Assembly (NCBI RefSeq): GCF_011758805.1
Contig: NZ_JAANOW010000001.1
Coordinates: 3,472,001-3,536,000 of the forward strand
Source of the DNA: Mycolicibacterium fluoranthenivorans
Lineage (GTDB): Bacteria > Actinomycetota > Actinomycetes > Mycobacteriales > Mycobacteriaceae
DNA length: 64,000 nt
Direction: 5' to 3'
Below the pieces are notes generated by a model. The model made no database searches. It was not told the origin of the DNA and was given only the letters and a program-made list of their open reading frames with translations. How positions within the stretch are numbered: position 1 is the stretch's first letter; every line of letters starts with the position of its first letter. This document shows, piece after piece, positions 12,168 through 23,140 of this stretch. A program made the position numbers and the translations under genes.

Positions 12168-13139
12168 TCAGCCCTGCGGCATCATCTCCGGCGGTGCGTC
12201 CGTGACGGGCACCGGCACGCCGACACCCGGCCTGGCCGGCGGTGCGTTGGGATCGACCGGCGGTGGCGGCGCATTCGGGTCCGGCGCCGGCGGCGGCGGC
12301 GGCGGACTCCAGGGGCGGATGGACTGTGCCAGCGCGGTGGCGGCGGCTTTGTCCACGGGGTGGTTGGCGGTGCCCAGCCACACGACGAACCAGCGCGAGG
12401 GTGCACGCTGGCCGCGCGGCACGCCGGCCGGGTTGGGCGCACCGACGACGCCGGCCCAGATCTGACCGGTCGGCTTGGTCGTGTCGGTGAACTTCACCTC
12501 GTAGTAGGACGCGGAGCCCGTCATATCGCCCGCGGCCAGCGGTGTCGTCTCCTGGCCGATCCGGGTGCCGGGGAACGGCATGAAGAACTCGCCCATATCG
12601 GAAGCCAGCCGCGCGGCCGCCTTCGAGTTGTCGGATTCGGCGCCGGCGAACAGCTTCAGGTCCAGACGGCCGAGCAGCACGCTGGTGTCGTTGGCCGGCT
12701 GCGCTGCGGTGCCCTGGGCGGGCGCGGGCTCGGTGCCGGCGGGCGGAATCTTGGTCAGCAGCGCCTGGCCGTAGGACAGCTGGGTGGCGTCGGCCACCTT
12801 CCAGCCGGGCGGCACGATGTAGCTGAAACCACCGGCCGCATTGTCGACCCGGCCCGGCTCCGGCGCAGGGGGCGGCGGTGGGGCCGGCGCGTTCGGATCG
12901 ACCGGGGGTGCGTTGGGATCCACGGGCGCGGGTGCCGGTGTGGCGTTCGGGTCGGCGGGCACAGGCGGGGGCGCCGGTGTCGCATTCGGGTCCGCAGGTG
13001 CCGGCGCGGGCGTCGGGGCCGGGGGTACCGGGTCGGCATGGGACACCGCGATGGGGAGCGTCAGTGCGGCCGCAGCCGCAATCGCCAGTGCGGTCGATAA
13101 GCGCTTGCGGTGTGACGAGCGCGCGTCCGGCTGATCCAT
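12168..13139 (-). CDS. apa: alanine/proline-rich secreted glycoprotein Apa
   Basis: A 323-residue secreted protein. Signal peptide at about 1-36 ([22 protein letters not shown]), then a Pro/Ala region with [14 protein letters not shown] repeats (about 37-95). A folded core follows from [14 protein letters not shown] to LAQSIRPW, and the tail is again Pro-rich. The core resembles the fibronectin-attachment protein family. In M. tuberculosis Apa is O-mannosylated and surface-exposed, and the Thr-Pro repeat parts here could be similarly modified. It follows modC on the same strand but is separated from it by about 200 bp holding a strong hairpin, so it probably has its own promoter. Confidence 0.93.
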
Positions 13140-16007: not shown

Positions 16008-16075
16008 GATATTCCCGCGTTCGCCCGCAGCTAAACGGGGTGCCCTCTCCGCTTCGGTGTGGTTACGTAAGTCCC

Positions 16076-17002
16076 ATGGCGATTCGACTCGGACTTCAGA
16101 TCCCCAATTTCTCCTACGGCACAGGCGTTTCCGAACTTTTCCCCACCGTCATCGCGCAGGCGCGTGAGGCCGAACAGGCCGGGTTCGACTCCGTCTTCGT
16201 GATGGACCACCTCTACCAACTACCCGGCCTCGGTGCCCCCGAGGAGCCGATGCTCGAGGCGTACACCACCCTCGGCGCCCTGGCCACTGCCACCGAGAAG
16301 GTGCAGCTGGGCACCTTGGTGACCGGTAACACCTACCGCAACCCCACGCTGCTGGCCAAAGCCATCACCACCCTGGACGTGATCAGCCAGGGCCGCGCCA
16401 TCCTGGGCATCGGGACCGGCTGGTTCGAGTTGGAACACGACAGCCTCGGCTACGAGTTCGGTACGTTCACCGAGCGGTTCAAGAAGCTCGACGAGGCGCT
16501 CGAGATCATCCTGCCGATGCTCAAAGGCGACCGCGTCACATTCGACGGCACCTATTACAAGACTCAGGAAGCCTTCGCGAATCCCCGCTTCCGCGACCAC
16601 ATTCCGCTGATGATCGGCGGCAGCGGCGAGAAGAAGACGATCCCGCTGGCGGCCCGGCACTTCGACCACCTCAACATCATCGCCGGCTTCGACGAGTTGC
16701 CCCGCAAGGTGGCTGTGGTCAAGGAGAACTGCGAGAAGATCGACCGCGACCCGGCGACGCTGGAGACCAGCGTGCTGGCGATCGCCCTCATCGGCGAGCA
16801 GTACACCGCGGACATCATCCCGGACGAGTTCAAGCAGCAGGCGGTGTACGGCGCACCCGAGCAGGTGGCCGAGCAGCTCAAGGAGAAGGTGTACGACGCG
16901 GGCGTCGACGGCGTCATCCTGAGCGCCTTCACCATCGGTGGTTACACCCCCGGTGGCGTGGCGGCGGTGGGCGAGGCGCTGCGGCCACTGATCGCGGGGT
17001 GA
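16076..17002 (+). CDS. LLM-class F420-dependent oxidoreductase
   Basis: A 308-residue luciferase-like TIM-barrel enzyme, probably the Rv1855c orthologue. Visible family blocks are MAIRLGLQIPNFSYG at the start, FDSVFVMDHLYQLPG (about 43-57), KVQLGTLVTGNTYRNPTLLAK and RAILGIGTGWFELEH. Family members in mycobacteria use F420 as hydride carrier; the substrate is unknown. The ATG at 16076 gives the conserved N-terminus. The TGA is inside the first unit of a 38/39-bp tandem repeat. Confidence 0.9.
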   Translation: MAIRLGLQIPNFSYGTGVSELFPTVIAQAREAEQAGFDSVFVMDHLYQLPGLGAPEEPMLEAYTTLGALATATEKVQLGTLVTGNTYRNPTLLAKAITTLDVISQGRAILGIGTGWFELEHDSLGYEFGTFTERFKKLDEALEIILPMLKGDRVTFDGTYYKTQEAFANPRFRDHIPLMIGGSGEKKTIPLAARHFDHLNIIAGFDELPRKVAVVKENCEKIDRDPATLETSVLAIALIGEQYTADIIPDEFKQQAVYGAPEQVAEQLKEKVYDAGVDGVILSAFTIGGYTPGGVAAVGEALRPLIAG

Positions 17003-17122
17003 ACAGGCCCAAGGGGCAGGAGCGAAGCGACCCGGGGGTGAACAGGCCCAAGGGGCAGGAGCGAAGCGACTCGGGGTGAACAGGCCCAAGGGGCAGGAGC
17101 GAAGCGACCCGGGGGTGAACAG
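16996..17122 (+). repeat. 38/39-bp tandem repeat, three units plus part of a fourth
   Basis: Units start at 16996, 17035 and 17073, and a partial copy (GGGGTGAACAG) at 17112. Each unit holds GGGGTGAACAGGCCCAAGGG followed by the dispersed motif GCAGGAGCGAAGCGAC. Units differ by one indel and one substitution. The stop codon of the LLM gene (GGGGTGA) is part of unit 1, so each unit repeats the end of the gene. Recent slippage or recombination is likely. Confidence 0.9.
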
Positions 17123-20617: not shown

Positions 20618-22350
20618 CAGAACAGGAAGTAGCGCTGCGCCATGGGAAGTTCGGCCGCGGGCTGTTCGGCCCACACGTCACCGTCGATACGCACCGTGAA
20701 GGTGTCCGGATCGACCTCGATGCGCGGCAGCGCATCGTTGAGCGGCATATCCGCCTTGCCGATCTTGCGGACATTCTTGACCGCCACCAGTTTTCGTCGG
20801 ATGTCCAGGCGGTCGGCCAGTCCGTCCTCGATGGCCTGCGGGGCCACGAAATGCACCGAGGTGGCGGCGGCCGCGACCGGAGTCGCGCCGAACATCGGCC
20901 GGGGCAGCACGGGCTGCGGCGTCGGGATCGACGCATTGGCATCCCCCATGGCCGCCCAGGCGATCATCCCGCCCTTGAGCACCGCGTGCGGGCGGACACC
21001 GAAGAACGCGGGTTCCCACAGCACCAGGTCGGCGAGCTTGCCGACCTCGACGGAGCCGATCTCGTCATCCAGGCCGTGCGCGACGGCCGGGCAGATCGTG
21101 TACTTGGCGACATAACGCCGGGCACGGTGGTTGTCATTTCCCTTGGCGCCGGCGATGTCTCCGCTGAGCGCGCCGCGGCGCTTCTTCATCACATGGGCGG
21201 TCTGCCAGGTACGCAGCACCACCTCGCCGATGCGGCCCATCGCCTGGGCGTCACTGCCGATCATCGAGATGGCGCCGATATCGTGCAGCAGATCTTCGGC
21301 GGCGATCGTCGACGGCCGGATCCGGCTCTCCGCGAAGGCCAGATCCTCCGGGATGCTGGGGTTCAGGTGGTGGCACACCATCAGCATGTCCAGATGCTCG
21401 TCGAGGGTGTTGACCGTGTGCGGCCGGGTGGGATTCGTCGAACTCGGCAGCACATTCGGGTGCGAGGCGACGGTGACGATGTCCGGTGCGTGGCCACCGC
21501 CGGCGCCTTCGGTGTGATACGCGTGGATGCCGCGGCCCTTGATGGCGGCCAGGGTGTCCTCGACGAAACCGGCCTCGTTGAGGGTGTCGGTGTGGATGTT
21601 GGCCTGCACGCCGGCGGCCTCGGACACCGTCAGGCACGCATCGATGGCGGCCGGCGTGGTGCCCCAATCCTCATGCAGTTTGAATCCGGCTGCGCCACCA
21701 CGTAATTGCTCCCACATGGCCTCGGCGCTGACGGTGTTGCCCTTACCCAGCAGTGCCACGTTCAGTGGCCAGGAATCCAGCGATTCCAGCATCCGGGCCA
21801 GGTGCCAGGACCCGGGGGTGACGGTGGTCGCCTTGCTGCCCTCGGCAGGTCCGGTACCCCCGGCGATGATGGTGGTGATCCCCCCGCCGAGAGCTTCCTC
21901 CATGATCTGCGGGCAGATCAGGTGGACGTGGCAGTCGATGGCCCCGGCGGTGAGGATGCGGCCGTTGCCCGCGATGATCTCGGTGGACGGACCGACGACG
22001 AGGTCCGGGTGCACCCCGGACATGATGTCGGGGTTACCCGCCTTACCGATCGCCACGATCCGGCCGTCGCGAATGCCGACATCGGCCTTGACGATTCCCC
22101 AGTGGTCCAGGATGACCACGCCGGTGATGACGGTGTCGGGTGCCCCTTCGGCCCTGGTCGCCCTGGACTGCCCCATCGATTCGCGCAGCACCTTGCCGCC
22201 CCCGAACACCGCCTCGTCACCGGCCAGGCCGGGCCCACCGCTACGATCCTCGGTGATCTCGATGAGCAGGTCGGTATCGGCCAGCCGGATCCGGTCGCCG
22301 GTGGTGGGACCGAACAGTGCGGCGTAGCGCTCGCGGGACAGTGAGCTCAC
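20617..22350 (-). CDS. ureC: urease alpha (catalytic) subunit UreC
   Basis: The 577-residue catalytic subunit, which hydrolyses urea to ammonia and carbamate with a di-nickel centre. Nickel ligands are visible in [10 protein letters not shown], in GFKLHEDWG (the Lys is carbamylated), in [10 protein letters not shown], in [12 protein letters not shown] and in GSDAQAMGR. The mobile-flap region with [22 protein letters not shown] is intact. It overlaps ureB by 4 bp (ATGA). All parts needed for activity are present. Confidence 0.97.
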
Positions 22351-22664
22351 TGGTGCGGGTCCAATCTGCCGGGCGGGGTCAGGGACAGCCCGTACACCTC
22401 GCGGGTGCCGCTCAGCGGGACCAACGAAACCCGTTGGGCGATGCCGGGTTCGAATCGGACGGCAGTACCGGCCGGGATGTCGAGTCGGTGCCCGTGCGCG
22501 GCGGCACGATCGAAGTCGAGCGCGGCGTTGGCCTGGGGCAGGTGCACGTGGCTGCCCACCTGGACCGGACGGTCACCGGTGTTGACGACGTCGATGGTCA
22601 ACCGCGGCGCGTCGGCGTTGAGCGCGATCTCGCCGTCGCCGTAGAGGAATTCGCCGGGAATCAT
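22347..22664 (-). CDS. ureB: urease beta subunit UreB
   Basis: A 105-residue beta subunit, separate from gamma as in most actinobacteria. It begins [20 protein letters not shown] and contains [17 protein letters not shown] and [24 protein letters not shown]. The start codon and its ribosome site lie inside the 38-bp tandem repeat that fills the ureA-ureB gap. The first three codons (ATG ATT CCC) are therefore repeated upstream. Confidence 0.95.
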
Positions 22665-22779
22665 GCGTGATCCGCCTCCGGCTTCTCACTTGCGGGAATC
22701 ATGCGTGATCCGCCTCCGGCTTCTCACTTGCGGGAATCATGCGTGATCCGCCTCCGGCTTCTCACTTGCGGGAATCATG
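22656..22779 (-). repeat. 38-bp tandem repeat carrying the ureB initiation site
   Basis: Perfect 38-bp units begin at 22656, 22694 and 22732, with a 10-bp partial copy at 22770. On the minus strand each unit carries GGAGGCGG, then ATG ATT CCC, that is, a ribosome site and the ureB start. Each upstream copy opens a 13-codon frame, [13 protein letters not shown], whose TGA overlaps the next ATG as ATGA. The frames run 22778-22737, 22740-22699 and 22702-22661, the last one overlapping the ureB ATG at 22664. Confidence 0.93.
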
Positions 22780-22787
22780 GGACCGCC

Positions 22788-23090
<303 letters not shown>

Positions 23091-23100
23091 AGTGCGCGAT

Positions 23101-23140
23101 ATTGCCATGGCGCGCGGCAATCAGCAGCGCTCATGGCAAT
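23101..23140 (-). promoter_or_regulatory. inverted repeat upstream of ureA
   Basis: ATTGCCATG (23101-23109) and CATGGCAAT (23132-23140) form perfect 9-bp arms with a 22-bp spacer, located 11-50 bp before the ureA start. It lies where an operator for the urease operon is expected. It does not look like a GlnR box. The binding protein is unknown. Confidence 0.45.

Follow-up and report, generated by a model that had tools for sequence, protein, structure and literature searches.

A perfect tandem array between ureA and ureB of Mycolicibacterium fluoranthenivorans very probably consists of copies of a short MIRU-like element

Introduction

The mycobacterial interspersed repetitive units, or MIRUs, are said to have been described by Supply et al. 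in 1997, with a target of the DTGA type. In a 2025 review they are presented as apparently mobile elements that insert at start codons and carry an internal ORF coupled at −4 nt (PMC12548453). Two further papers give a unit length of 40–100 bp (PMC2734929) and confine the MIRUs of the senX3-regX3 region to the M. tuberculosis complex and M. leprae (PMC4213456). The available sections of PMC9094748 do not mention MIRUs.

A second related system is formed by small ORFs coupled through RTGA. According to PMC4633059, these are enriched in mycobacteria, the enrichment referring to small ORFs on leaderless transcripts; re-initiation at coupled RTGA sites is discussed there, with Shine-Dalgarno-like wobble positions upstream, and for one coupled small ORF the linkage is conserved but the sequence is not.

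Here we describe a tandem array between the urease genes ureA and ureB of Mycolicibacterium fluoranthenivorans (GCF_011758805.1; 6.4 Mb in 6 contigs), labelled G000 among 396 genomes of the genus. The array is located in the window, i.e. the whole stretch of 64,000 nucleotides that was analysed (NZ_JAANOW010000001.1, positions 3,472,001 to 3,536,000), to which the coordinates below refer. Judged from sequence comparison, the three units very probably represent a short MIRU-like element which was inserted at the ureB start codon and then amplified in tandem, and the array would be translationally transparent.

Results

Anatomy of the ureA–ureB array

Tandem Repeats Finder delimited a repeat tract at 22655–22779 with a period of 38, 3.3 copies and 100% matches. 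Read on the minus strand, exact 38-bp units begin at 22665, 22703 and 22741 and span 22665–22778, in agreement with the three perfect units that a sequence-only reading of the window had placed between the two genes. The translated sequence likewise confirmed its claim that every unit opens an identical 13-residue mini-frame (SEEPEADRA-type), the stop of which shares 4 bp (ATGA) with the next ATG; the stop of the third mini-frame overlaps the ureB ATG (22664) in the same way. The arithmetic of the frame step was also correct, as a mini-frame of 42 nt including the stop, minus the overlap of 4 nt, yields 38, the unit length. Each unit contains GGAGG, 10 nt ahead of the following ATG.

The chain of ATGA overlaps that had been drawn from ureA to ureB holds for the mini-frames among each other and for the last of them with ureB, but the link to ureA is a 9-nt gap, the first mini-frame starting with the ATG at 22778 (Table 1). 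An ATGA that overlaps the ureA stop opens another frame of 9 codons (MRRSHDSRK, then a stop), which does not lead into the chain. Both genes exceed the cut-offs of the respective models, urease gamma and urease beta, in the profile search, and proteins of Mycolicibacterium sp. are among the relatives of UreA.

The exact 38-mer occurs three times in the source genome with 0 control matches, and at ≤3 mismatches it is absent from the other 395 genus genomes searched (control 0); the array is therefore not a product of chance.

Tandem repeats of period 39 are present elsewhere in the window. The one at 16996–17122 on the plus strand has 3.3 copies; it starts where the ORF 16040–17002 terminates (GGGGTGA) and repeats GTGA in each unit, and it is possibly another DTGA-associated repeat family. 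The one at 12921–13016 has 2.5 copies with 78% matches.

Table 1. Features of the ureA–ureB junction, further core copies in the source genome and element-derived UreB extensions. Positions are those of the window unless another location is given.
Feature	Position	Strand	Basis or remark
ureA (urease gamma)	22788..23120	-	ORF; NCBIfam NF009712, TIGR00193; PF00547; stop TGA 22790-22788
Gap of 9 nt, ureA stop to first mini-frame	22779..22787	-	Sequence; reads GGCGGTCCC
Mini-frame 1 (unit 1 = 22741-22778)	22737..22778	-	Sequence; ATGA into unit 2
Mini-frame 2 (unit 2 = 22703-22740)	22699..22740	-	Peptide as mini-frame 1; ATGA into unit 3
Mini-frame 3 (unit 3 = 22665-22702)	22661..22702	-	Peptide as mini-frame 1; ATGA onto ureB start
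25-bp core, copy 3	22666..22690	-	Variant AGTGAG..ATCACG of AGCGAGNAGCCGRAGGCGGATCGCG
25-bp core, other two array copies	22704-22728, 22742-22766	-	
First ten bases of ureB, gene-side target copy	22655..22664	-	ATGATTCCCG; same as first ten bases of every unit
ureB (urease beta), N-terminus MIPGE	22347..22664	-	ORF; urease beta models match from residue 1
Core copy L085	G000:C2:29488-29517	minus	Ahead of nicotinate phosphoribosyltransferase
Core copy L136	source genome		Ahead of pafC
Core copy L128	source genome		Ahead of open frame without Pfam match
Core copy L086	source genome		N-terminus of bPH_6 protein
Core copy L126	source genome		Start of further open frame
UreB extensions from the element	L245, L203, L211, L243, L261, L280, L319, L321, L322		Nine other species

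Distribution of the core

A 25-bp core of the unit, AGYGAGNAGCCGGAGGCGGATCNCG, was found 8 times in the source genome at ≤3 mismatches and 0 times when reversed; the junction search of this genome gave weaker matches elsewhere. All five of its copies beyond the array stand at gene starts (Table 1). The single copy L085 constitutes an upstream mini-ORF (GTG start, 12 codons, ATGA), and no long frame ends at its start. In the genus as a whole, the core was recovered in 380 copies from 132 of the 396 genomes at ≤3 mismatches, with 10 matches for the reversed-pattern control. Beyond the genus, 178 genomes of the order were searched for core plus CATGA, and one of them matched, at a distance of 13 bases from the end of a contig. 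Like a MIRU, the element is dispersed over many loci and restricted to mycobacteria, and it stands before many unrelated genes. On the basis of this core, the unit is a member of a dispersed MIRU-type family, a membership that the earlier reading had missed. Among the papers listed by literature searches, none describes the short family, as judged by titles and the beginnings of abstracts and with most subscription papers, including Supply 1997, beyond reach; the core and peptide strings gave no match in a literature text search.

These copies bear on the possibility that the array arose by purely local tandem duplication of the ureA–ureB junction, with no mobile element involved. Such an origin fits the identity of the first ten bases of the unit with the ureB start and the occurrence of the exact 38-mer at the window junction only. 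However, the core recurs in the source genome (with 0 mismatches at four other sites, 2 at one and 3 at one) and in 131 other genomes, and no element-like sequence was present in the 26 element-free ureA–ureB junctions that were read. Local duplication as the sole origin of the unit is ruled out by the core copies elsewhere in genome and genus. Duplication can account for the increase from one copy to three but not for the first copy, and we regard the purely local reading as very improbable.

Site form and insertion signature

Among the matches listed, 183 copies at 146 sites with flanks were analysed, some of which are chance matches. The usual site form is DTGA-NNNCC-[AGCGAGNAGCCGRAGGCGGATCGCG]-C-ATGA, the core being set in brackets, and the units in the window are 3 nt longer than the usual 35. 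DTGA is located 9 nt ahead of the core at 79 of the 146 sites and 10 nt ahead at 21; at the other end, the core and one base are followed by ATGA at 91 sites and by GTGA at 5. A start codon (ATG/GTG) was found at the usual offsets in 126 sites, in 116 of these as DTGA, while 20 sites have none at these offsets and some of them resemble ordinary coding sequence. When the 126 starts were translated, the first frame ended in a stop overlapping a new start in 86 cases, remained open for at least 60 codons in 38 and did neither in 2. There are therefore two forms of insertion, a coupled mini-frame and an in-frame N-terminal extension, and the location at start codons with an own ORF coupled at −4 nt, as in MIRUs, is thus present here. 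The frame walk led to a long open frame at 122 of 124 decided sites (20 more are without a start and 2 are undecided), but control starts taken from these flanks did so too in 4034 of 5136 cases, and a downstream long open frame is therefore by itself weak evidence in this GC-rich DNA.

DTGA is present on both sides in the usual spacing at 74 sites, which were grouped into 41 clusters by a simple identity cut that mixed some unlike sites (L085 and L149 in one cluster; L273 among the pafC sites). Both sides carry an identical base after DTGA in 33 of the 41 clusters, with 17.0 expected (permutation p 5e-5 on run lengths). The four positions that follow agree in 10, 14, 18 and 9 clusters (10.5, 10.8, 17.7 and 11.1 expected), which is about chance. 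It is because of this agreement at a single base beyond DTGA that insertion appears to duplicate the 4 bp TGAN. The upstream D is A at 50, G at 23 and T at 1 of the 74 sites, the downstream D is A at 71 and G at 3. The simplest reading, which we infer from the alignment of the two ends, would be a 4-bp TGAN duplication by an element that ends in A, and a GTG start would therefore be turned into ATG.

Mini-frame peptide and RNA structure

The conserved entity might instead be the small peptide (SEEPEADRA-type), acting as a functional leader or micro-protein. The frame is indeed kept in most copies, and T at the variable base, which makes TAG in the relay frame, occurs in 0 of 137 frame-0 copies vs 2 of 25 frame+1 copies (Fisher p 0.023). 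On the other hand, the freely varying core bases N and R are first codon positions (E/K and similar). Core changes number 49, 33 and 39 at codon positions 1, 2 and 3 (7, 8 and 8 columns), and since an excess at the third position is absent there is no sign of selection on the peptide. Moreover, 28 of the 183 copies lie in another frame and 18 in none, and PMC4633059 provides a precedent for a coupled small ORF in which the linkage and not the sequence is conserved. The mini-frame peptide is probably without function, and we consider it highly unlikely that a leader or micro-protein is what is being maintained.

Folding of the array mRNA was no better than that of shuffles (z 0.44), and for single units a small hairpin is possible (z −0.8 to −2.0). 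In the window variant both partners of one stem pair are altered, and the best-associated pair of core columns is the stem pair 3/21 (p 0.0008 among ~250 pairs). We nevertheless claim no conserved hairpin, as half of the double changes at 3/21 fail to pair and the stem is disrupted by many changes on one side.

Tandem arrays and copy number

The earlier suggestion that ribosomes could pass through the units gains support from comparison, since the reading path is broken in none of 23 tandem arrays. All 27 internal junctions of the 18 arrays with a period of 35 or 38 bp have ATGA. In the four arrays of period 36 and the one of period 37, each unit continues in frame into the next. Followed from the first start by read-through and 4-nt overlaps, the path leads into a long open frame in 21 of the 23 arrays and is unbroken to the contig end in L149 and L275. 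The frame shift of −1 per step, which had been noted for the urease array, is a general property of element plus target and not a urease device, because the unit is a dispersed MIRU-type element and the periods 35, 38 and 53 are all 2 mod 3.

In genome G032, the arrays L274, L275, L277 and L149 sit at the ends of contigs or close to them, as would be expected if the true arrays were longer and had interrupted the assembly. The window array and a three-unit array at another site in G200 (L223) have the rare core variant AGTGAG..ATCACG in common, as if the variant had moved between sites.

At the start of pafC, eleven species carry 1, 1, 1, 1, 1, 2, 2, 2, 3, 3 and 5 units, respectively. The identity of pafC was confirmed by HMM in L130 and L136, and the N-terminal sequence is common to all eleven. 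As these unit counts differ, copy number changes in evolution, the comparison being one between species with one genome for each.

The urease junction in related genomes

The element is present at the ureA–ureB junction of at least eleven genomes (8 of the 146 sites and three from a dedicated search). The coupled form was found in G000, with three units, and in G200, with one. In nine genomes the element is fused as an in-frame N-terminal extension of UreB (Table 1), six of these being identified by the frame walk and three by sequence reading; in L322 the old ureB ATG is also retained beside the fusion. Empty junctions show either a direct DTGA overlap (e.g. G029, G017, G023) or a short spacer (e.g. 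G034, G014), and the empty relative G034 has a spacer of 10 nt where the window has its 9-nt gap.

A UreA+UreB tree was calculated with 34 rows, without L319, L321 and L322; 21 of its 31 inner branches are open and the bootstrap is unsettled. In this tree the filled G200 pairs with the empty G034 (99/90), and G000 groups with these two and the fused G377 (97/97). The well supported branches force at least two state changes at the junction. With relatives both filled and empty, insertion into this junction, or loss from it, must therefore have occurred repeatedly.

These data can be set against the proposal of the sequence-only reading that the array is a selected urease regulator, the copy number of which tunes UreB vs UreA or gives phase-type variation. 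In its favour, three perfect copies suggest a recent change, species differ in the number of units ahead of pafC (1, 2, 3, 5), and a GGAGG box lies beside the following start in each unit. Yet the same element stands before many unrelated genes, 9 of the 11 ureA–ureB insertions found have become part of UreB and retain no relay, and copy-number change leaves the reading path open in 23 arrays, whereas an on/off switch would require the contrary. Neither a tuned UreA:UreB ratio nor phase variation finds support here or is needed to account for the array, and a selected regulatory role is very unlikely.

Comparison with the classical MIRU

A string taken for the classical MIRU matches 182 of the 396 genus genomes and, at ≤3 mismatches, is absent from the source genome. 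The short element and the classical MIRU tend to avoid each other, both being present in 30 of the 396 genomes where 60.7 are expected (Fisher p 4e-11, phylogeny not corrected).

Twenty loci were read from the 182 matching genomes, 17 of them with DTGA on both sides (L308 and 16 other loci). In 15 of these 17 the two sides agree in the base that follows DTGA (5.6 expected); the upstream DTGA was taken at an unusual offset in L293, L299 and the shortened first unit of L308, and leaving out L293 and L299 gives 14 of 15. A change from G to A at the start was seen in 6 of 7 sites with GTGA upstream. At L308 (in G161), five classical units of period 53 lie between a histidine-kinase-like frame ending in REEELSR and a stop, presumably SenX3, and a response regulator. 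The best solved-structure match of the latter is RegX3 (2oqr, E 3.4e-142). Among the senX3-regX3 oligos of PMC2639699, one matches at L308 with 1/24 mismatches and three do not (5/19, 9/23, 9/25); an M. tuberculosis complex senX3-regX3 primer from the same source gave no match in 14 candidate genomes.

The DTGA insertion of MIRUs is thus also found in the short family (33/41 vs 17), the periods of which, 35, 36, 37 and 38 bp, fall below the classical length of 40–100 bp. Alignment of a 26-bp core to the 3′ end of the 53-bp classical unit gave p 0.011 with base shuffles and 0.35 with codon shuffles.

Discussion

If the three units are copies of a MIRU-like element, as we propose, an element of ~31 bp, accompanied by a 4-bp copy of its TGAN target and, in the window, by another 3 nt, would have been inserted at the ureB start codon, and by comparison with other sites the 3′ end of the element appears to supply the A of the new ATG. 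The element is mostly found at DTGA start/stop sites, oriented with the gene and with TGAN matching on both sides. With every copy come a start codon, a box (GGAGG or GAAGG) and a frame that terminates in ATGA, and the path of 4-nt stop/start overlaps is therefore continuous after insertion as well as after amplification. Ribosomes finishing ureA would cross the 9-nt gap, start at the first mini-frame and then re-initiate stepwise, from mini-frame to mini-frame, into ureB, which would make the element nearly neutral for ureB. Copy number could change by slippage or by recombination between the identical units. Read as anatomy from the sequence, the relay is well founded and is supported by comparison.

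A wider interpretation is put forward more tentatively, and we would give it somewhat less than an even chance. The copies may represent a distinct ~31-bp family of mycobacterial mobile elements that enters coupled stop/start sites with a 4-bp TGAN duplication, converts GTG to ATG, makes any copy number transparent to, or even improving for, translation by means of its Shine-Dalgarno box and a frame of the right length, and has repeatedly been recruited as an N-terminal extension, e.g. of UreB. Mobile elements of ~31 bp would be among the smallest known.

The findings link what seemed a curiosity of one operon to a class of elements spread through the genus. The TGAN duplication provides a measurable insertion signature that is common to two unlike sequence families, and the UreB extensions show repeats becoming parts of proteins. 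The natural arrays, with 1 to 5 near-identical re-initiation steps, offer material for measuring stepwise re-initiation in mycobacteria, and the copies are possible typing markers for species without classical MIRUs.

Among known systems, the MIRU-VNTR loci of the M. tuberculosis complex are similarly tandem minisatellites, many of them in operon junctions and variable in copy number; they belong to another sequence family, and copy number was compared between species here. The RTGA-coupled small ORFs share the overlap of a small-ORF TGA with the next RTG, and linkage that is kept more than the peptide. Unlike the units described here, which are identical and arranged in tandem inside an operon, they are not dispersed repeats; the L085 copy ahead of nicotinate phosphoribosyltransferase resembles this class. 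The MIRUs come closest. Both they and the short family are dispersed mycobacterial repeats at start codons that form tandem copies with a −4 relay, have a DTGA target with TGAN matching on both sides, and show GTGA upstream changed to ATGA downstream. Classical arrays differ in core and in period, which is mostly 53 bp (50 in one) vs 35–38 bp here. Since the length is 35–38 bp and kinship by sequence is putative, we file the short family as a MIRU-like variant outside the classical sequence family. In its target, its duplication and its relay anatomy, as far as these can be read from the sites compared, it thus works like a MIRU.
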